Positions 26,115 to 33,768 of a stretch of 33,830 bases of DNA are shown in pieces (the stretch's first letter is position 1; each line of letters opens with the position of its first letter). The DNA lies in assembly GCA_016783905.1 (NCBI GenBank), contig JADHVQ010000017.1:1-33830 (forward strand), read 5' to 3'. A program made the translations under genes and the position numbers. The DNA comes from Bacteroidales bacterium (GTDB lineage Bacteria; Bacteroidota; Bacteroidia; Bacteroidales; FEN-979). Below the pieces are notes generated by a model, which searched no databases, was not told the origin of the DNA, and saw only the letters and a list, made by a program, of their open reading frames with translations.

Positions 26115-26666
26115 TTATAGAACATGCACCGGCTGGATCAGATCCTGTCCGATCGTAACGGCTTTCTCATTATCCGGAATAAGTTTATGGTGCCTGGCGG
26201 GAAGGGATTTCTCCAGCCCTTTATGGATATTCTCCATTTTGACGATTGGTTTCAGCTTCAGGAAACCGCCAAGCACCATCATGTTAAAGACTTTCGACAA
26301 TCCCATTCTTCCGGCCTCATCGGCAGCAGCAATGGAATAGATATTAATGTCTTTCCGCTCGGGATGTCGCGTGATCCCGTTGGGATCGTAGATTAGCAAG
26401 CCTCCCGGTTTGACTGCGTTTTCAAACTTATCCAGGGACTGCTGGTTCAGGATGATAGCTGTATCATATTTATTCAGGATGGGAGAGCTGATCCGTTCAT
26501 CGGATACGATCACTGTCACATTGGCGGTTCCACCCCGCATCTCCGGACCATAGGAGGGCATCCAGCTTACCTCCTGGTTTTGAATCACGCCTGAATAGGC
26601 TAAGATCTTACCCATGGAGAGGACCCCTTGTCCCCCAAAGCCTGCTATAATGATTTCTTCAGTCAT
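26115..26666 (-). CDS. vorC: 2-oxoacid:ferredoxin oxidoreductase, gamma subunit (VorC/KorC type)
   Basis: The protein has 183 residues. The gamma-domain opening IIIAGFGGQGVLSMGKILAYSG is followed by SYGPEMRGGTANVTVIVSD, both diagnostic of the CoA-binding gamma subunit of four-subunit enzymes. It is the last gene of the vorD-B-A-C set, separated from vorA by a 100-bp gap that holds an octamer repeat. It works as a cytoplasmic complex with the other three subunits. Confidence 0.92.
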   Translation of the reverse strand: MTEEIIIAGFGGQGVLSMGKILAYSGVIQNQEVSWMPSYGPEMRGGTANVTVIVSDERISSPILNKYDTAIILNQQSLDKFENAVKPGGLLIYDPNGITRHPERKDINIYSIAAADEAGRMGLSKVFNMMVLGGFLKLKPIVKMENIHKGLEKSLPARHHKLIPDNEKAVTIGQDLIQPVHVL

Positions 26667-26710
26667 AACGTATAGTTCTTATTTGACGATTGTTTCTTCT
26701 TTTTCAGATG

Positions 26711-26767
26711 CTGGATGACTGGATAACTAGATAACTCGATATCCAGGAATCCAGTGATCTAGTTATC
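26711..26767. repeat. Degenerate CTGGATAA octamer array with inverted copy, behind vorA
   Basis: Four consecutive 8-bp units: CTGGATGA, CTGGATAA, CTAGATAA, CTCGATAT. The array then turns into related sequence in inverted orientation that ends at the first base of the vorA stop codon. A perfect 11-bp inverted repeat is present, GATAACTAGAT (26722-26732) and ATCTAGTTATC (26757-26767). The basic octamer is the same as in the array on the korB stop codon at 17073. Confidence 0.8.
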
Positions 26768-27564
26768 TATTTAAGTTTTTCAATCAGTTCACCATCCACC
26801 TTGATGTCTCCAATCGGATAGTACGGAAACATGTTTTCCTCCATCCACTTGTTGGACTGTACCGGGGTCATCTTCCAGCCGGAGTTGCAGTTTGAGACAA
26901 TCTCCACAAAGGAGATCCCTTTGCCCAGATCCTGACAGTCGAACGCCTTTCGCAACGCTTTTTTCGTCTTTCTGACCGCTGCAGGAGTATGAACGGATTG
27001 CCTGGTTACATAGTAGGTGCCCGGAAGCTGGGCAATCAACTCGGTGATCTTAAGCGGGTAGCCCATGATGTCGGTATCCCTGCCGTAGGGAGAGGTTGAG
27101 GAACGCATGCCCGGAAGTGTGGTCGGAGCCATCTGACCGCCGGTCATTCCGTAAATACCGTTGTTGATGAAGATGATGGTGAAGTTCTCCCCGCGGTTAC
27201 AGGCATGGATGGTTTCGGCCGTTCCAATGGCCGCAAGGTCGCCGTCACCCTGGTATGTGAAAACATAGCGTGAGGGCCAGAGGCGTTTGATCGCGGTTGC
27301 CAGTGCAGGAGCGCGGCCGTGAGCAGCACCAAGCATGTCGATATTCAGGAAATCATAAGCCAGTACCGAGCAACCAACCGGACTGATCCCGATGGTTTTT
27401 GACGCAATTTCTTTCTCTTCCAATACCTCCATCAGCATGCGGTGAGCCACCCCATGGCCACAGCCAGGACAGTAGCTGAGAGGACAGTCAACTAGGAGGT
27501 CTGTGCGTTTGTAAACCAGGTTTTCTGGTGTTCTCAGTTCAGGATGTGCAAATTTCTCTTCCAT
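26767..27564 (-). CDS. vorA: 2-oxoacid:ferredoxin oxidoreductase, beta (TPP) subunit (VorA type)
   Basis: The protein has 265 residues. The iron-sulfur/TPP region LSYCPGCGHGVAHRMLMEV is followed by GISPVGCSVLAYDF, AHGRAPALATAIKR, the TPP/Mg motif YQGDGDLAAIGTAETIH, and INNGIYGMTGGQMAPTT. The GMTGGQM motif is typical of the Vor/four-subunit Kor group rather than the two-subunit KorB encoded at 17094. VorB ends 1 bp upstream, so they are translationally linked. Substrate is a branched-chain 2-oxoacid or 2-oxoglutarate; sequence reading alone cannot decide. Confidence 0.92.
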   Translation of the reverse strand: MEEKFAHPELRTPENLVYKRTDLLVDCPLSYCPGCGHGVAHRMLMEVLEEKEIASKTIGISPVGCSVLAYDFLNIDMLGAAHGRAPALATAIKRLWPSRYVFTYQGDGDLAAIGTAETIHACNRGENFTIIFINNGIYGMTGGQMAPTTLPGMRSSTSPYGRDTDIMGYPLKITELIAQLPGTYYVTRQSVHTPAAVRKTKKALRKAFDCQDLGKGISFVEIVSNCNSGWKMTPVQSNKWMEENMFPYYPIGDIKVDGELIEKLK

Positions 27565-27565
27565 G

Positions 27566-28648
27566 TTAACCTCCTATGATTTTTTCTTCCAAAACCCTGA
27601 CTACCTCATCCGGCGTTGGAATGATTCCGCCAAATCGTCCGTAATGTTCAATGGGGATGTTGCATCCAACCGAGAGTTGTACATCCTCGATCATCTGTCC
27701 AGCATTCATCTCTACCACCAGCATTCCTTTTACTTTTTCTCCTATCTTCCGGATCTCTTTTTTCGGAAATGGAAACAGCGTGATAGGACGGAAGAGGCCT
27801 ACTTTGATCCCTTTATCCCTTGCCAGCTGCATCGCTTTTTGACAGATGCGGGCCGAGAGGCCGAAGGCAACCAGGAGGTATTCGGCATCCTCACAATCAA
27901 GCATCTCAAACTTCACCTCTTTCTCTTCTATCTCCCTGTATTTCTCCTGTAGGCGCAGGTTCAGTCTCTCCTGTCCGGCCGGATCGAGATCCAAAGAGGT
28001 GAGGATGTTGTGTTCGCGGGTCATAGGACGGCCGGTGGAAGCCCATGGACACTGTGTGATTACCTCTTCATCGCCACGACGGGGTATTGGATCATCCAGG
28101 TAAACCTTTTCCATCATCTGTCCGATCGCTCCGTCGGAGAGGATCATAACCGGTGTCCGGTACTTGAAGGCAGCATCAAAACCCAACTTCACGAAGTCGG
28201 CCATCTCCTGAACCGAAGCAGGTGCGTAAACAATGATGTGGTAATCGCCATGCCCCCCTCCCTTAACTGATTGAAAGTAGTCGGCCTGGGAAGGTTGAAT
28301 GGTCCCCAAACCGGGGCCTCCCCGTACTATGTTGACCAGCAGAGCAGGCAATTGAGTTCCGGCCATGTAGCTGATACCCTCCTGCATCAGGCTGATGCCC
28401 GGACTGGACGAGGAGGTCATCACCATTTTCCCGGTCCCCGCGCCTCCGTATAACATATTGATGGCAGCTACCTCACTCTCAGCCTGTAAAACAACCATGC
28501 CCGTGGTCTCGTATGGTTTCTCTGCCATGAGGTACTCCAATACTTCCGACTGGGGAGTAATAGGATAGCCGAAGTAACCGTCGCAACCGGCACGGATAGC
28601 AGCTTCAGCAATCGCTTCATTCCCCTTCATTAATCTTAGTTCGCCCAT
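27566..28648 (-). CDS. vorB: 2-oxoacid:ferredoxin oxidoreductase, alpha subunit (VorB type)
   Basis: The protein has 360 residues. It opens with LMKGNEAIAEAAIRAGCDGY followed by FGYPITPQSEVLEYLM, the PYR-domain signature, then VVLQAESEVAAINMLYGGAG (TPP-activating glutamate), TSSSSPGISLMQEGISYMAG and NIVRGGPGLGTIQPSQADY. The C-terminal transketolase-like domain ends with MIEDVQLSVG and a VVRVLEEKI tail. There is no N-terminal gamma domain, which is separate here (VorC). Close spacing to vorD (20 bp) and vorA (1 bp) marks an operon. Confidence 0.93.
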   Translation of the reverse strand: MGELRLMKGNEAIAEAAIRAGCDGYFGYPITPQSEVLEYLMAEKPYETTGMVVLQAESEVAAINMLYGGAGTGKMVMTSSSSPGISLMQEGISYMAGTQLPALLVNIVRGGPGLGTIQPSQADYFQSVKGGGHGDYHIIVYAPASVQEMADFVKLGFDAAFKYRTPVMILSDGAIGQMMEKVYLDDPIPRRGDEEVITQCPWASTGRPMTREHNILTSLDLDPAGQERLNLRLQEKYREIEEKEVKFEMLDCEDAEYLLVAFGLSARICQKAMQLARDKGIKVGLFRPITLFPFPKKEIRKIGEKVKGMLVVEMNAGQMIEDVQLSVGCNIPIEHYGRFGGIIPTPDEVVRVLEEKIIGG

Positions 28649-28668
28649 TAGTTAGTATTTTTAATGTT

Positions 28669-28899
28669 TTATTCTACAGTGACTTTTGCCCGGTATACCG
28701 TAATGACACCATCCGGACAAACCAGTGCGCAATTGGAGCATCCGGTGCAATCATCATTCACCTTGATGGCAAAAAGGTACCCTTTGCTGTTCACCTCCTC
28801 CGACATAGCGATACACATAAAAGGACAGGCTGCGATGCATACTTCACACCCTTTGCATCGTTCGATATTCACCACAATGTCTCCTTTGATCTTTGCCAT
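28669..28899 (-). CDS. vorD: 2[4Fe-4S] ferredoxin subunit (VorD type)
   Basis: The protein has 76 residues. Two cluster motifs are seen: C15-x2-C18-x2-C21-x3-C25-P (CKGCEVCIAACP) and C51-x2-C54-x2-C57-x3-C61-P (CTGCSNCALVCP). It is the electron-transfer subunit of the Vor complex and the first gene of its operon. Upstream (28900-29017) the minus strand has TACTTTCG about 40 bp before the start, one mismatch from the TAnnTTTG consensus, a possible operon promoter. Confidence 0.94.
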   Translation of the reverse strand: MAKIKGDIVVNIERCKGCEVCIAACPFMCIAMSEEVNSKGYLFAIKVNDDCTGCSNCALVCPDGVITVYRAKVTVE

Positions 28900-29017
28900 A
28901 TTATTTGAGATTTTTTATGTTTAAAAGGAAGCACGAAAGTAAAGAAATAAATTCGAAGGATTTATCCTGAGACTTAGGTTTTTTGGGGAAAAGAGGTTAA
29001 TTTAGAACTGGTTTAAT

Positions 29018-29833
29018 CTAAAGCGCATACGGCAGGGCACGGAAATATTCTTCCGTGAATTGAGGATTAATCTGCTGGTAAAAATCGATAACCAGCCTGG
29101 CCTTCTCGCGGATCCTGTCAAACGTATCGACGATGAACCAGAATTGCTCGCCACCAGAGAAGAGATTCTGGGCAAATACGTTGATATCCTCTTCAAAGGC
29201 CGATTGGGAATATTTGTTCAGAAATCCAAATGCAAGGAGGTCATAATTGTAATCCAGAGAGGCCTCTCCTTTCTTAATAGCCTCCACTCCGCCAGTGCCA
29301 TAGGAGAAGTCGGGAGGATTGATGGCTACCCAGCTTCGTTTGTCAAATTGCTTATAAAATTTACGCAGCAAGACACTGGAGAATTCATGATGGAATACCC
29401 CCTCCACATACTCGCTTGTACGTTCGGGATTGGAGTTATCATAGGTGAGGTATATCACATCTTTGGTGTTGGTGCCTCCATAAGGGACACCAAAGAAAGT
29501 AAGTGATTTCAGGACATATACTTTTCGCAGGTAGACAAACAGTACATCTTCAGGATACTTTGCTATGGCTTTGTTCAGAATATCCATGGCTTCTGTACGG
29601 TACTCACGTGGCAGCGAAACCGCATCGGCACTGATCCGTTTGCAATACCAGCTGGAGGGAAACATCCGGGGTTCGCTATTAAACAGGATATCAATCCCTT
29701 CCAGGATCGCAGGATGCTCGGGAATATCAATGGGGGCAGCTGAGGTAAGGAGAAGCAGGGGCAGGAACAGAAACAGGGATAGTCTGTTCACTTCAGGTTT
29801 TCGTTTGGTATTATCCTGTTGGGTGTTGTTCAT
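29018..29833 (-). CDS. Secreted metallopeptidase-like protein with HEFSS in place of HExxH
   Basis: The protein has 271 residues with an N-terminal hydrophobic segment (LSLFLFLPLLLLTSA). The ATG at 29833 overlaps the end of the aminotransferase gene by 23 bp; a GTG at 29791 would avoid the overlap and give a tidier signal peptide. The central segment EGVFHHEFSSVLLRKF looks like a zincin active-site helix, but the second histidine is replaced by serine (HEFSS). A later segment, QSAFEEDINVFAQNLF, could supply the acidic third ligand. It resembles a family of putative zinc-binding peptidase-like proteins of Bacteroidota. Whether it binds zinc or cleaves peptides is unknown. Confidence 0.65.
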   Translation of the reverse strand: MNNTQQDNTKRKPEVNRLSLFLFLPLLLLTSAAPIDIPEHPAILEGIDILFNSEPRMFPSSWYCKRISADAVSLPREYRTEAMDILNKAIAKYPEDVLFVYLRKVYVLKSLTFFGVPYGGTNTKDVIYLTYDNSNPERTSEYVEGVFHHEFSSVLLRKFYKQFDKRSWVAINPPDFSYGTGGVEAIKKGEASLDYNYDLLAFGFLNKYSQSAFEEDINVFAQNLFSGGEQFWFIVDTFDRIREKARLVIDFYQQINPQFTEEYFRALPYAL

Positions 29834-31130
29834 AGAACCGTTTTAATCGTTCTTCCAGTTCCGGGAACTGATCACGGAGTACCAGGGATACACAGGCTCT
29901 TACACCTTCGTGACGTGTGCTTCCGGTAATGGAAAGGGCAATGGCACTGATGCCGTAATACAACAACTCTTCAATCAGCTCTTCACCGGTGAATCCGGTG
30001 TAACTGATGGTAAAATAGAAGCCATCCGCAATAGGGTCATCTTCATCCATGTCGTAGACGATGCGAAATCCATTATCCGTGAAGAGCTTCTTCATGATCT
30101 TCGCCTTGTGACCATACTCCTTCACTACCTCTACGAAATTATAAGTCCCTTCATTGGAAGCTTTCAACATGGCAGCCAGGCCATGTTGGGCCGAATGGCT
30201 GACGCCTGCACTTAATGCATATACCGTGCCGTAGACCAATGCCCGTCCCAGGATATCCGTGGTGTAGTATCTCAGCAGATCTTCCGACTGCATGTCAAAG
30301 AGTTGGTCGGAGACCAGCATCAATCCTACCCGCTGCCCGGCGTAACTGAATACTTTGGAGCTACTGATCAGCAGGATGTAATTGTCAGTATATTTTGCCA
30401 CTGTAGGCTGGTAAGGGGGGACACCCGGTTGGGAGTAATCCTTGCGGAAGTCCATGGCAATATAAGCCAGATCCTCTATGATCACCACCCCATATTTGGT
30501 GGCCAGTTCTCCAATGATCCGTAGCTCCTTGTCGGTGAAACAGACCCAGGAAGGATTATTGGGATTGGAATACAATACCGAATGGATATTCCCCTTGGCG
30601 AAGAAGGACTCCAGTTTATCCCTCAACTTATCCCCACGGTAGTCGTAGATGTCAAACGAATCAAACTTCTGGCCAAGGATAATATGCTGTTGCCGGTGAA
30701 CCGGAAAACCCGGGTCGATGAACAGGGTGGTATCTTTGTCTTTGTTCAGTCTTGCCAAGGTAAGAAAAGCGGCAAATCCTCCCTGCATCGAACCAACTGT
30801 AGGGATGCAATGGTGAGGATCAATATCGACATCCAGGAAAAACTTGGCAAACCGGGCCGCCTCTGTTTTCAGTTCCGGGATGCCTTCAATCTCCGGATAG
30901 ATGGAGGCCACACCAGACTTCAATGCGGCAATTTCCGCTTGAACACCCACCTCAACTGCTTTCAGACCCGGTACTCCCATCTCCATGCGAACAAACTTCT
31001 GGCCGGTCTCCTTCTCAATCCCGTTGATTAACCGCTTAATTTCACGAATAGAAGCTTTGCCTATATTACGGATTTTACTCTCTTTAATGTGCCTGCTGAC
31101 AACCTCAAAAGGAATAGGAGTATTTTTCAT
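29811..31130 (-). CDS. PLP-dependent aminotransferase, class I/II
   Basis: The protein has 439 residues. Fold-type I features are seen: IYPEIEGIPELKTEAARF (substrate-side region), TVGSMQGGFAAFLTLAR (cofactor-binding turn), SNPNNPSWVCFTDKEL, IIEDLAYIAMDFR (the Asp that binds the PLP ring nitrogen), and SSSKVFSYAGQRVGLM, with the PLP lysine and phosphate-binding arginine. The N-terminus is longer than in AspC-type enzymes. The substrate cannot be read from sequence. Its stop overlaps the next gene's start region by 23 bp. No perfect promoter was seen in the 205-bp upstream gap, which mainly holds a tandem repeat. Confidence 0.9.
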   Translation of the reverse strand: MKNTPIPFEVVSRHIKESKIRNIGKASIREIKRLINGIEKETGQKFVRMEMGVPGLKAVEVGVQAEIAALKSGVASIYPEIEGIPELKTEAARFAKFFLDVDIDPHHCIPTVGSMQGGFAAFLTLARLNKDKDTTLFIDPGFPVHRQQHIILGQKFDSFDIYDYRGDKLRDKLESFFAKGNIHSVLYSNPNNPSWVCFTDKELRIIGELATKYGVVIIEDLAYIAMDFRKDYSQPGVPPYQPTVAKYTDNYILLISSSKVFSYAGQRVGLMLVSDQLFDMQSEDLLRYYTTDILGRALVYGTVYALSAGVSHSAQHGLAAMLKASNEGTYNFVEVVKEYGHKAKIMKKLFTDNGFRIVYDMDEDDPIADGFYFTISYTGFTGEELIEELLYYGISAIALSITGSTRHEGVRACVSLVLRDQFPELEERLKRFYEQHPTG

Positions 31131-31266: not shown

Positions 31267-31336
31267 GGACAAGCGGACAAGCGGACAAGCGGACTGCCAA
31301 CTGCCAATTGCCAACTGCCAATTGCCAACTGCCAAC
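31267..31336. repeat. Compound tandem repeat: octamer GGACAAGC x3, then heptamer TGCCAA(C/T) x6
   Basis: From 31267 the octamer GGACAAGC occurs three times and is followed by GGAC. From 31295 six 7-bp units run TGCCAAC, TGCCAAT, TGCCAAC, TGCCAAT, TGCCAAC, TGCCAAC. The last base of the array (31336) is the first base of the activase stop codon read on the plus strand. The rest of the gap (31131-31266) shows nothing recognisable. Confidence 0.9.
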
Positions 31337-32142
31337 TAAAAAGGCGTTTCACTGCCGACGTAACAGGTAATCCCTTCCGCTTCGAGGGTATCCTTGATAT
31401 GTTGCATCGAAACGGGAGTTGGAATATAAAAATCGCTGGTGAAGTAGGAGCAACCGGTGAGCAGGTATTTTTCGCGTCCCAGGTGATGAAGGGGAAGCAG
31501 GTTGATCTCTTTCAGACCGGTTGAAGAGATGAAGCTACCGATCCGGTGGATATGATCTGGCTGGTCGTTGTATCCTGGAACTACAGTCATGCGATAAACC
31601 ATTCTGCCTTGGAATTCATCGGCCAGCCATTTGGCATTTTCCAGAATATGGCTGTTCGAATGGCCGGTCCACTCCAGGTGAAGATCCGGGTCCATCTGCT
31701 TGAGGTCAAAAAAGAGCCAGTCAAGGTAAGGTAGGGAAGGCTCTATGAAGGAGCGGGAAACCTCCCCGCATGTTTCCACGGCCGTATGCACATAGGCATC
31801 ATGGCAGCGCTTCAGGATTGCAGCAGCGAACGCGGGTTGAAAAAAGGGTTTTCCACCCGTAAGGGTGATCCCTCCCCGGCTTCCCCAGTATTGCCTGTCG
31901 CGCTGAACCAGGGAATAAAGTTCACTCACAGAAATGGCATAACCACCTTGCTGTAAAGCTCCGGTGCAACAAGCGGCGGTACAATCAAAGGTAGTACAGG
32001 AAATACATTTTTCGCGGTCGATAACCAGCTCCCCGGATTCCTCTGTAATGGCTTGATACGGACAGGCTTCTATACATAGCCTGTCAAGTGTACATTTCTC
32101 ACGACGGAAAAGAGGTTCGGGAAAAGGATTCTTGCCTTCGGG
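31336..32142 (-). pseudogene. Glycyl-radical-enzyme activase (radical SAM), 5'-truncated
   Basis: Only the C-terminal part of a PflA/YjjW-like activase remains. The open frame reads from about 32142 (PEGKNPFPEPLFRREKC) through two ferredoxin-like cysteine clusters (CTLDRLCIEACP and CISCTTFDCTAACC), then GGITLTGGKPFFQP, VHTAVETCGE, WLFFDLKQMDP and MTVVPGYNDQ to the end. The N-terminal segment that carries the CxxxCxxC radical-SAM motif is missing; at that point the sequence changes to an IS3 transposase. No ATG lies upstream; a GTG at 31929 would give 197 residues without the cysteine clusters. In GGKP a lysine replaces the usual glutamate of the SAM-binding GGEP motif. The product is most likely inactive. 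Confidence 0.8.
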
Positions 32143-32531
32143 ATGTACGTGATATCAACGGCCCAGGCCTGATTTGGTTTTCCTATTTTAAGTCCTTTAA
32201 GAAGATAGGGGCGGATGTATTTGGCATGCCCCAACTTACTCAAGTTTCTTTTCGGGAAAATTGCCATAAGTCCCATTTTCCTGAGTAAGCGACGAACCCT
32301 TTTATGATTGACAAGAAAGCCCAATAAAAATAAGAAGTCCTGCATTTGTAGTACACCGTGAGTGGGATGATCCAGGTAATGTTCATCCATTAACCGCATG
32401 ATGGCCAGGTTTTCTTCTGATTCACCAATCGGTTCGTAATACACCGTGCTACGATTTACTGTTATCAATTCACATTGAGAACGAATGCTTATGTTCTCAT
32501 CTTCTGCAATATAACTTATTATCTCTTTCAT
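32143..32531 (-). pseudogene. IS3 transposase OrfB, truncated before the catalytic core is complete
   Basis: The reading frame from 32531 shows the HTH_21-type region (YLDHPTHGVLQMQDFLFLLG, VNHKRVRRLLRKMGL) and reaches NQAWAVDITYIP, the start of the DDE integrase core with its first Asp. The second Asp and the Glu are missing. After ITYIP the frame runs another ~25 codons into activase DNA and ends at 32070, so the last residues are not transposase. The start overlaps the orfA stop (ATGA). Inactive. Confidence 0.85.
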
Positions 32532-32815
32532 AGACCGGCTCGTTTTGAAATTTTTTTTAGCCAGTCTCGCTCAACTTCTAACTTCCCGATTGTGGCATAC
32601 AGTGTTTCTCGTTCCGCCTCAAAGTCCACTTCCGGGGGTTGAGTCTCGAAAATCTCGGAGGACCGGTCTATAAATTCCTGTTTCCATTTGGAAATCATGT
32701 TGGGATGCACTTCATACCGTTTCGAAAGTTCTGCCAGTGATTCACGTTCCTTTAACGCTGCAATGGCGACTTCGGCTTTAAATGCCGCTGTAAATTTTTT
32801 TCTTTTTGTTTTCAT
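32528..32815 (-). CDS. IS3-family transposase OrfA
   Basis: The protein has 95 residues. A typical helix-turn-helix OrfA: FTAAFKAEVAIAALKERESL, then AELSKRYEVHPNMISKWKQE, followed by a leucine-rich coiled coil (LYATIGKLEVERDWLKKI). It is intact, but its partner OrfB is broken, so transposition cannot be supported by this copy. Normal OrfAB is made by a -1 frameshift near the end of this gene. Confidence 0.9.
   Translation of the reverse strand: MKTKRKKFTAAFKAEVAIAALKERESLAELSKRYEVHPNMISKWKQEFIDRSSEIFETQPPEVDFEAERETLYATIGKLEVERDWLKKISKRAGL
32551..32558 (-). promoter_or_regulatory. Probable -1 frameshift slippery site of the IS3 element
   Basis: On the minus strand there is a run of eight A residues read as CTA AAA AAA ATT in orfA, 20 bases before the orfB start codon. 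A -1 slip here would enter the orfB frame without meeting a stop and would fuse OrfA to OrfB, as is known for IS3-family elements. Confidence 0.55.
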
Positions 32816-32867
32816 ATTCCACTGTTAAAATTAAGTTTTTTTCTCAACTTAACCAGTGGTCTGAATT

Positions 32868-33428
32868 TTGGGGAGTATTATAAGTCGCCATAGCTTTTGT
32901 AATGCCCATTTGTTAAGGGATTTGAAAAGCCTGGTGGAGGATGGCAAAATATGGGCCTCAGAAATGATCACGTTGCTTCTGAAGGCTAAAGAACTAAAAG
33001 AAACCGTCAAACTGACAAAGAAAATCAAGGGAACAATTTTAGCAGAATATGATGAAATTGTCAGATCAGGCCTTGCCATAGAACCACTGCCGGAAGAAAA
33101 TCACATAAAAAAACGGGGGAAAAAGAAAAAACCACCCTCTTTGCGCCTGTTGGAAACTTTTTCAAACAGGAAGCAGCAGGTAATGGAATTTTTTGTAAAC
33201 CCAGCCGTGCCATTTGATAATAATTTGGCTGAACGTGACCTTAGAATGGTGAAATTAAAACAAAAAATATCTGGTTGTTTCCGAACAAAAAAAGGCGCTG
33301 AAACATTTTTTAGAATTCGATCCTATATTTCTACACTTAGAAAACAAGGCTACAACATCCTTGACTCATTGCAACTCGCTATTGAAGGCACTCCCGTGAG
33401 TTTTGCCTTGGCTAAAGCTGAACAGTAA
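32868..33428 (+). pseudogene. IS66-family transposase, C-terminal fragment
   Basis: The open frame carries the IS66 signature CNAHLLRDLKSLVEDGKIWA and, further on, FFVNPAVPFDNNLAERDLRM and KLKQKISGCFRTKKGAETFF, with the late catalytic Glu in NNLAERD. The N-terminal two thirds, including the zinc-finger region and the first catalytic Asp, are absent, cut at the end of the IS3 element near 32860-32880. No IS66 terminal repeat is seen after the stop. This is a remnant. Confidence 0.85.
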
Positions 33429-33429
33429 C

Positions 33430-33696
33430 CAATTTTTTTGAGAAAACTCGTTTCTAGATCTCCCATCCATAATAATGTAGCACCATTTTTTAAGCTATAT
33501 TGAATGACCGCAGAAATGTTATTAAAACTTTGTCCCTCTTTTGCTTTTACTAATTCTTCCATATAGTACCGATTACTTGTTACAGGCCATAAAATATGTA
33601 TTCCCGATGAACCGCGTTCAGTATCATTATCATTAAGCCATTTTCTTTCACATCCCATATAAATAAAAAATGATTTTTCCGAATCACGTAATGTAT
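33430..33696 (-). pseudogene. Fragment of an MBL-fold (ComEC-like) protein
   Basis: Read on the minus strand, the frame gives YTLRDSEKSFFIYMGCER, then GIHILWPVTSNRYYMEELVK, GQSFNNISAVIQYSLKNGAT and LLWMGDLETSFLKKI. The pattern N-N-I-S-x-V-I followed by a hydrophobic strand and GD(L)E is typical of the metallo-beta-lactamase fold of ComEC-like proteins. The fragment is cut on the left by the IS66 remnant (near 33430) and on the right by the IS21-like repeat (near 33697), so both ends of the gene are missing. The original function is unknown. Confidence 0.5.
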
Positions 33697-33768
33697 ATTC
33701 CGGTGGATACTGACCCCCCCATTCCGGAGCAAGCTGACCCCACCATTCCGGTGATACTGCCCCCCCCT
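33697..33768. repeat. Three-copy 24-bp repeat, probable end of an IS21-family element
   Basis: ATTCCGG begins at 33697, 33721 and 33745, exactly 24 bp apart. Each unit continues with a CTGACCCC-like block (GGATACTGACCCC, GCAAGCTGACCCC, GATACTGCCCC). IS21-family elements carry multiple such repeats near their ends, and Bacteroidota copies have similar CCCC/ATTCCGG units. The rest of the element would lie to the right, outside the window. Positions 33769-33830 are open in one forward frame but gave no recognisable product. Confidence 0.6.

Follow-up and report, generated by a model that had tools for sequence, protein, structure and literature searches.

An hpdA-type activase gene probably truncated by a recent deletion next to an IS3 remnant in a Bacteroidales genome

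Operons of the hpdBCA type, which include the activase gene hpdA, are found in Clostridium scatologenes and Clostridioides difficile. A 4-hydroxyphenylacetate decarboxylase (HPAD) of Tannerella forsythia is also named in PMC6181972. In C. scatologenes, HpdDEFG, a VOR-like four-subunit 4-hydroxyphenylpyruvate:ferredoxin oxidoreductase, adjoins the HPAD (PMC13285125); the same source describes the C. scatologenes cluster with HpdDEFG as not occurring in other bacteria with an HPAD, C. difficile among them.

The locus described here is on contig C18 of a 2.47-Mb Bacteroidales genome that consists of 128 contigs and is about 89% complete. The genome is taken to be a metagenome-assembled genome (MAG), based on its fragmentation and on the fact that the named ones among its same-genus relatives (G001 to G005) are MAGs. 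The contig was analyzed at its whole length of 33,830 bases (referred to below as the window). The locus is similar to the known hpdBCA operons in that its activase has HpdA as the best NCBIfam model, the partner enzyme of its relatives scores above the HPAD cut-off, and a small Cys-rich open reading frame (ORF) lies between the genes for these two proteins in an intact copy. In contrast to HpdA of those operons, the window copy lacks residues 1 to 42 along with the CxxxCxxC motif and has GGKP in place of GGEP. As in the C. scatologenes hpd cluster, the HPAD genes are found close to those of a putative VOR-like four-part 2-oxoacid:ferredoxin oxidoreductase; unlike in that cluster, an aminotransferase gene belongs to the gene order. 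Half an insertion sequence (IS) beside a cut gene, with partner genes missing, is also what is generally known from IS-associated gene truncations, and the event is of an ordinary kind, IS-associated gene decay. Nothing about it stands out from such cases; the joint lies inside the IS gene orfB, at a probable microhomology, and not at an IS end. No report of an IS-truncated hpdA was found among the literature matches listed. The favored reading, to which a probability of about 0.7 is assigned, is that the gene is a recent pseudogene of hpdA that arose through a real and recent deletion.

The truncated activase gene

The activase frame, on the minus strand, is open for 272 codons (31339 to 32154, followed by a stop codon at 31336 to 31338), and an in-frame TGA within IS3 sequence closes it on the upstream side (Table 1). 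Activase homology begins at PEGKNPF (32142), the Pro residue at position 5 of the frame (codon 32140 to 32142). Direct comparison aligns residues 42 to 310 of the intact ortholog from G003 to window positions 32145 to 31339, with clear homology starting from PEG at residue 43. The best NCBIfam activase models are matched from profile position 34 to 38 in the remnant, compared to position 1 to 2 in the intact G003 copy. Alignment to intact activases, which had been proposed as a check in the initial annotation, fixes the breakpoint at ortholog residue 42/43 and the joint within 32138 to 32144. That annotation had described a frame that begins abruptly, runs open to its stop codon, and is closed upstream by another stop at 32155 to 32157; all of this is found in the sequence, and the coordinates given are correct to within a few bases.

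Table 1. Features of the hpdA remnant, the insertion elements, and the downstream genes in the window
Feature	Position	Strand	Basis or remark
2-Oxoacid:ferredoxin oxidoreductase, gamma-type subunit	26115..26666	-	Below equivalog cut-off
2-Oxoacid:ferredoxin oxidoreductase, beta-type subunit	26767..27564	-	Below equivalog cut-off
2-Oxoacid:ferredoxin oxidoreductase, alpha subunit, VorB subfamily	27566..28648	-	532.7 bits; cut-off, 399
76-aa two-cluster ferredoxin resembling 2-oxoacid oxidoreductase delta subunits	28669..28899	-	Below curated cut-offs
271-aa protein, Peptidase_Mx1 match below cut-off	29018..29833	-	Same place in G002 and G003
PLP-dependent aminotransferase (class I/II)	29811..31130	-	Directly follows hpdA in G002 and G003 as well
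hpdA remnant, HpdA-type glycyl-radical-enzyme activase residues 43 to 310	31336..32144	-	Profile matches, ortholog alignment
AAA (Lys) in place of the GGEP Glu	31849..31851	-	Glu in all 21 intact relatives of the alignment
Breakpoint interval ATCCCGA, up to 7 bp of inferred microhomology	32138..32144	-	Activase and IS3 comparisons
In-frame TGA closing the activase frame upstream, within IS3 sequence	32155..32157	-	Read from sequence
IS3-family remnant with the left end, orfA, and the start of orfB (~130 codons), lacking the right half	32138..32882	-	Profile and sequence comparison
IS3 orfA, 95 aa, HTH_Tnp_1	32528..32815	-	Profile match
IS3 left terminus TATAATACTCCCC	32870..32882	-	Also in L062 to L067
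IS66 transposase gene, C-terminal part, interrupted at IS3 left end	32883..33428	+	Profile match

Profile searches show that the best model for the remnant is HpdA (NF033717), with an E value of 3.5e-69 and 233.4 bits, a match far beyond chance. The remnant also passes the family cut-off of TIGR02494 (202.9 bits versus 174.35). Unlike members of the HpdA equivalog, the G003 copy, although intact, falls short of the NF033717 equivalog cut-off of 420 bits (319 bits), as does the remnant; this model is still the best-scoring one for both. The gene is predicted from these scores to be hpdA-like, coding for an activase of 4-hydroxyphenylacetate decarboxylase, and to be closest to the HpdA-type activases. 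The PflA/YjjW-like identity under which it had been annotated was rejected, as the HpdA-type model scores far higher than the YjjW and PflA models (86.9 and 121.6 bits).

The remnant has kept the ferredoxin-like Cys clusters and the C-terminal radical-SAM region. Its first 42 residues are gone, and with them the CxxxCxxC motif, which in radical-SAM enzymes holds the SAM-cleaving [4Fe-4S] cluster. This motif is absent from the window frame and is found exactly once in each of the 21 intact relatives that were aligned (out of 25 close loci, L021 to L045; L037 and L043 to L045, whose matches are split into pieces, were left out). The SAM-binding motif reads GGKP in the window and GGEP in every one of these 21 sequences. 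Both losses had been suggested in the initial annotation, which spoke of a deleted segment with the radical-SAM cysteines and of an altered GGEP, and comparison with the 310-aa orthologs bears them out. Because it has no CxxxCxxC motif, the product of the remnant cannot hold the SAM-cleaving cluster. Judged by its sequence, the hpdA gene is a remnant rather than a functional member of the activase family and its product could hardly work.

The frame is nevertheless open and not decaying, and the ferredoxin-like Cys clusters are still present in the DNA, as would be expected if the remnant still functioned, for instance as a ferredoxin-like electron carrier or as an activase rebuilt with another start. 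However, the first ATG, GTG, or TTG codon in the frame (GTG at 31929) comes only after these clusters. Combined with the absence of CxxxCxxC, the altered GGEP, and the failure to find a partner glycyl radical enzyme (GRE) of the HPAD type in the MAG, this makes a working protein hardly credible.

Intact hpd loci and the genes kept downstream

Protein searches of 61 genomes (the MAG itself and 60 relatives) gave matches in 52, roughly half of which are only distant ones. Close matches in 25 relatives, all from the same family, were treated as orthologs. The best of these, with 310 aa and 70% identity, are found in the same-genus genomes G002 and G003. The gene order hpdB-hpdC-hpdA is seen in 24 of the 25 close loci, and the 25th consists of hpdC and hpdA, with a contig end 355 bases beyond hpdC. 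An aminotransferase gene is found downstream, within the ~1.5 kb examined, in 16 of these loci and was not found within that distance in the other 9. In G002 and G003, hpdB-hpdC-hpdA is followed by aminotransferase and oxidoreductase genes; hpdB of G002 is cut by a contig end.

The GRE encoded in G003 (HpdB, 886 aa) scores 1420.1 bits with the HPAD large-subunit model (NF033715; cut-off, 1150) and shows similarity to the solved enzyme 2y8n along 850 residues. Its residues C491, E493, and E625 align, by count, with C503, E505, and E637 of 2y8n, which are assumed here to be the thiyl-loop Cys, Glu1, and Glu2, respectively. According to PMC6181972, HPADs conserve Glu2 and indoleacetate decarboxylases do not. 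The Cys-rich ORF between hpdB and hpdA of G003 codes for 84 aa and shows weak matches to PF18524 (E value of 5.3e-5) and PF18671 (E value of 4.2e-4), both below the cut-off, as well as a weak match to the HPAD small subunit 2y8n_B (E value of 0.0096). The partner enzyme of the relatives is a probable p-cresol-forming enzyme (HPAD).

The genes hpdBCA, the aminotransferase gene, and the VOR-type oxidoreductase genes are found together in G003 (L051, 2906 to 11957) and also in G002, where the stretch starts inside hpdB. The stretch from 26115 to 31130 of the window is the counterpart of the aminotransferase-oxidoreductase stretch of G003. Among its four VOR-type oxidoreductase genes, only the one for the alpha subunit scores over a curated cut-off. 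A role of this cluster in the conversion of tyrosine to p-cresol appears reasonable from its predicted gene content, and the hpdBCA-aminotransferase-oxidoreductase stretch possibly represents a full tyrosine-to-p-cresol unit. The window contains short tandem repeats in the gap that separates the hpdA remnant from the aminotransferase gene (31267 to 31337), with 3.5 copies of GGACAAGC and 6.4 copies of ACTGCCA; 15 more matches to the ACTGCCA part were found in the MAG. Other short repeats are found at the same place between hpdA and the aminotransferase gene in L050, L051, and L095.

The joint with the IS3 remnant

The residues WAVDITYIP encoded directly upstream of the remnant come from the interior of an IS3 orfB, which runs as far as DITYIP, as had been noticed in the initial annotation. 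In profile searches, IS3 orfA and the 5' half of orfB both score below the whole-protein cut-off; the left end of the element is present and the right half is absent. The left terminus TATAATACTCCCC is common to all six correctly oriented IS3 copies in the alignment (L061, which has the wrong orientation, was excluded). The left end at 32882, inside the IS66 gene, is genuine on this comparison.

At the breakpoint, two of four intact activase genes read AATCCCGA, and the other two differ by one base. The stretch ATCCCGA is also found at the matching place of orfB in 3 of 24 IS3-type homologues, a set that includes distant elements and in which identical stretches are counted once. One of these three, the IS copy L128, matches the window from there at 12 of 13 bases. 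A search for the parental IS3 in 393 genomes of the order, evenly drawn from a larger group, matched 16 at an E value of 1e-40, the window's own genome included. The best other IS3 in these genomes shows 75% DNA identity over the full length (81% over 240 bases in G082), and the best protein match elsewhere shows 77% identity. Because the parental copy was not found among the 393 genomes searched, the microhomology has to be inferred. No second copy of the IS3 segment was found in the MAG. A 31-base junction pattern had 0 matches in viral_contigs, which is uninformative.

An IS3 remnant at the joint would also be expected from an IS-adjacent deletion that was made by the IS3 transposase itself and started at the IS end. 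However, a transposase-made deletion of this kind leaves the IS end in place next to the breakpoint, whereas the joint seen here is between two gene interiors, those of hpdA and of IS3 orfB directly behind the DITYIP codons, and the element lacks its right half. Such an origin is disfavored because there is no IS end at the joint, and it must be regarded as very unlikely.

In the favored reading, an IS66 element and then an IS3 element within it would have ended up either upstream of the hpd genes or inside them. Later recombination at a short shared sequence would have taken out everything from the right half of IS3 through hpdB and hpdC to codon 42 of hpdA. The position of the joint in the shared 7-base stretch fits a microhomology-mediated deletion after the insertions. 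A deletion after IS insertion had already been proposed in the initial annotation, and the joint of two gene interiors, the intact IS3 left end, the missing right half, and the up to 7 shared bases all agree with it. The last step, from 4-hydroxyphenylacetate to p-cresol, would then be lost, and the genes that possibly serve the earlier steps would be kept. With no CxxxCxxC motif and no partner enzyme found, the bacterium should lack the 4-hydroxyphenylacetate-to-p-cresol step, and its loss of p-cresol formation is considered likely.

Partner genes and the possibility of an assembly artefact

Neither hpdB nor hpdC was found in the 128 contigs of the MAG. The search of the genome for the missing 5' part of hpdA and for a partner GRE, which had been suggested along with the proposed truncation, retrieved neither and returned only one other activase and one other GRE, both from contig C117. 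The one PFL-like GRE gene in the MAG, a 33% paralog on that contig with an activase gene nearby, was rejected as the missing hpdB partner. The nearby activase (39% over residues 71 to 231) was rejected as the missing 5' part of hpdA. The two genes upstream of hpdB in G001, G003, and G004, presumably those of an M28-like peptidase and an HI0933-like flavoprotein, were sought as the far edge of the deletion and have only weak partial matches in the MAG. Among the same-genus relatives, no hpdB of the HPAD type and no hpdC were found in G005, and no hpdC was found in G001 and G004. In a bin of 89% completeness, the missing hpdB and hpdC are no more than suggestive of loss, and these genes may be unassembled rather than absent.

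No relaxed selection on the remnant was seen in the comparison of private changes and invariant columns. Over 268 residues, the remnant has 7 private changes, compared to 9 and 10 in the intact copies of G002 and G003. It departs once (the Lys of GGKP) from columns that are invariant in all others, a count that sets aside four IS3-derived residues at the joint; for the intact copies, such departures number 0 to 3. The dS values of the remnant versus G002 and G003 are 1.37 and 2.74, with synonymous sites near saturation, so that dN/dS is rough. The aminotransferase comparison in this test was made without an outgroup. The lack of accelerated change in the remnant means either a very recent loss or an erroneous join in the assembly.

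An assembly or chimeric-read artefact would mean that hpdBCA is intact in the population and that hpdA was wrongly linked with an IS3 copy of other origin. The contig, which is part of a MAG, ends 1.7 kb away from the joint, in a stretch of IS fragments. In four of the five same-genus relatives (G001, G002, G004, and G005), a contig end is likewise found in or beside the hpdB-to-aminotransferase stretch: inside hpdB in G002, inside hpdB and inside hpdA in G001, inside hpdB as well as 59 bases short of the aminotransferase gene in G004, and some 56 bases before that gene in G005. These contig ends speak for an artefact, as does the lack of decay in the remnant, and the absence of hpdB and hpdC from a bin of this completeness is weak evidence of their loss. 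However, the shared sequence at the joint amounts to about 7 exact bases (12 of 13 with L128), which is below the usual assembly k-mers. The IS3 segment is the only copy found in the MAG and is continuous to a proper IS3 end, there is no N in the window, and GGKP is a separate change that a misjoin would not create, although a sequencing error could. An artefact is thus unlikely, if still to be reckoned with, and a real, recent deletion is preferred. As a side observation, the hpdB-to-aminotransferase stretch seems to assemble poorly (L094, L095, L096, L098, L115, and L116).

The gene is now better identified, as that of the activase of a p-cresol-forming enzyme, and it points to an hpdBCA-aminotransferase-oxidoreductase order in an uncultured Bacteroidales genus. 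The surrounding gene cluster is mildly interesting and a more useful lead than the pseudogene. It is tentatively proposed that this genus has a complete Bacteroidales-type tyrosine-to-p-cresol cluster and that, in this population, an IS3/microhomology deletion might recently have removed just the cresol-forming end, changing a p-cresol maker to a 4-hydroxyphenylacetate maker. The recent loss of p-cresol formation is a testable proposition.

The outer part of the contig shows further traces of mobile elements. The end of the IS66 fragment (33315 to 33439) has a 125-base copy with 92% identity on contig C76 of the same genome. Near the contig end, there are three 24-nt direct repeats similar to ATTCCGGTGGATACTGACCCCCCC (33697 to 33767), which possibly mark where a further insertion element ends, presumably an IS21-like one.
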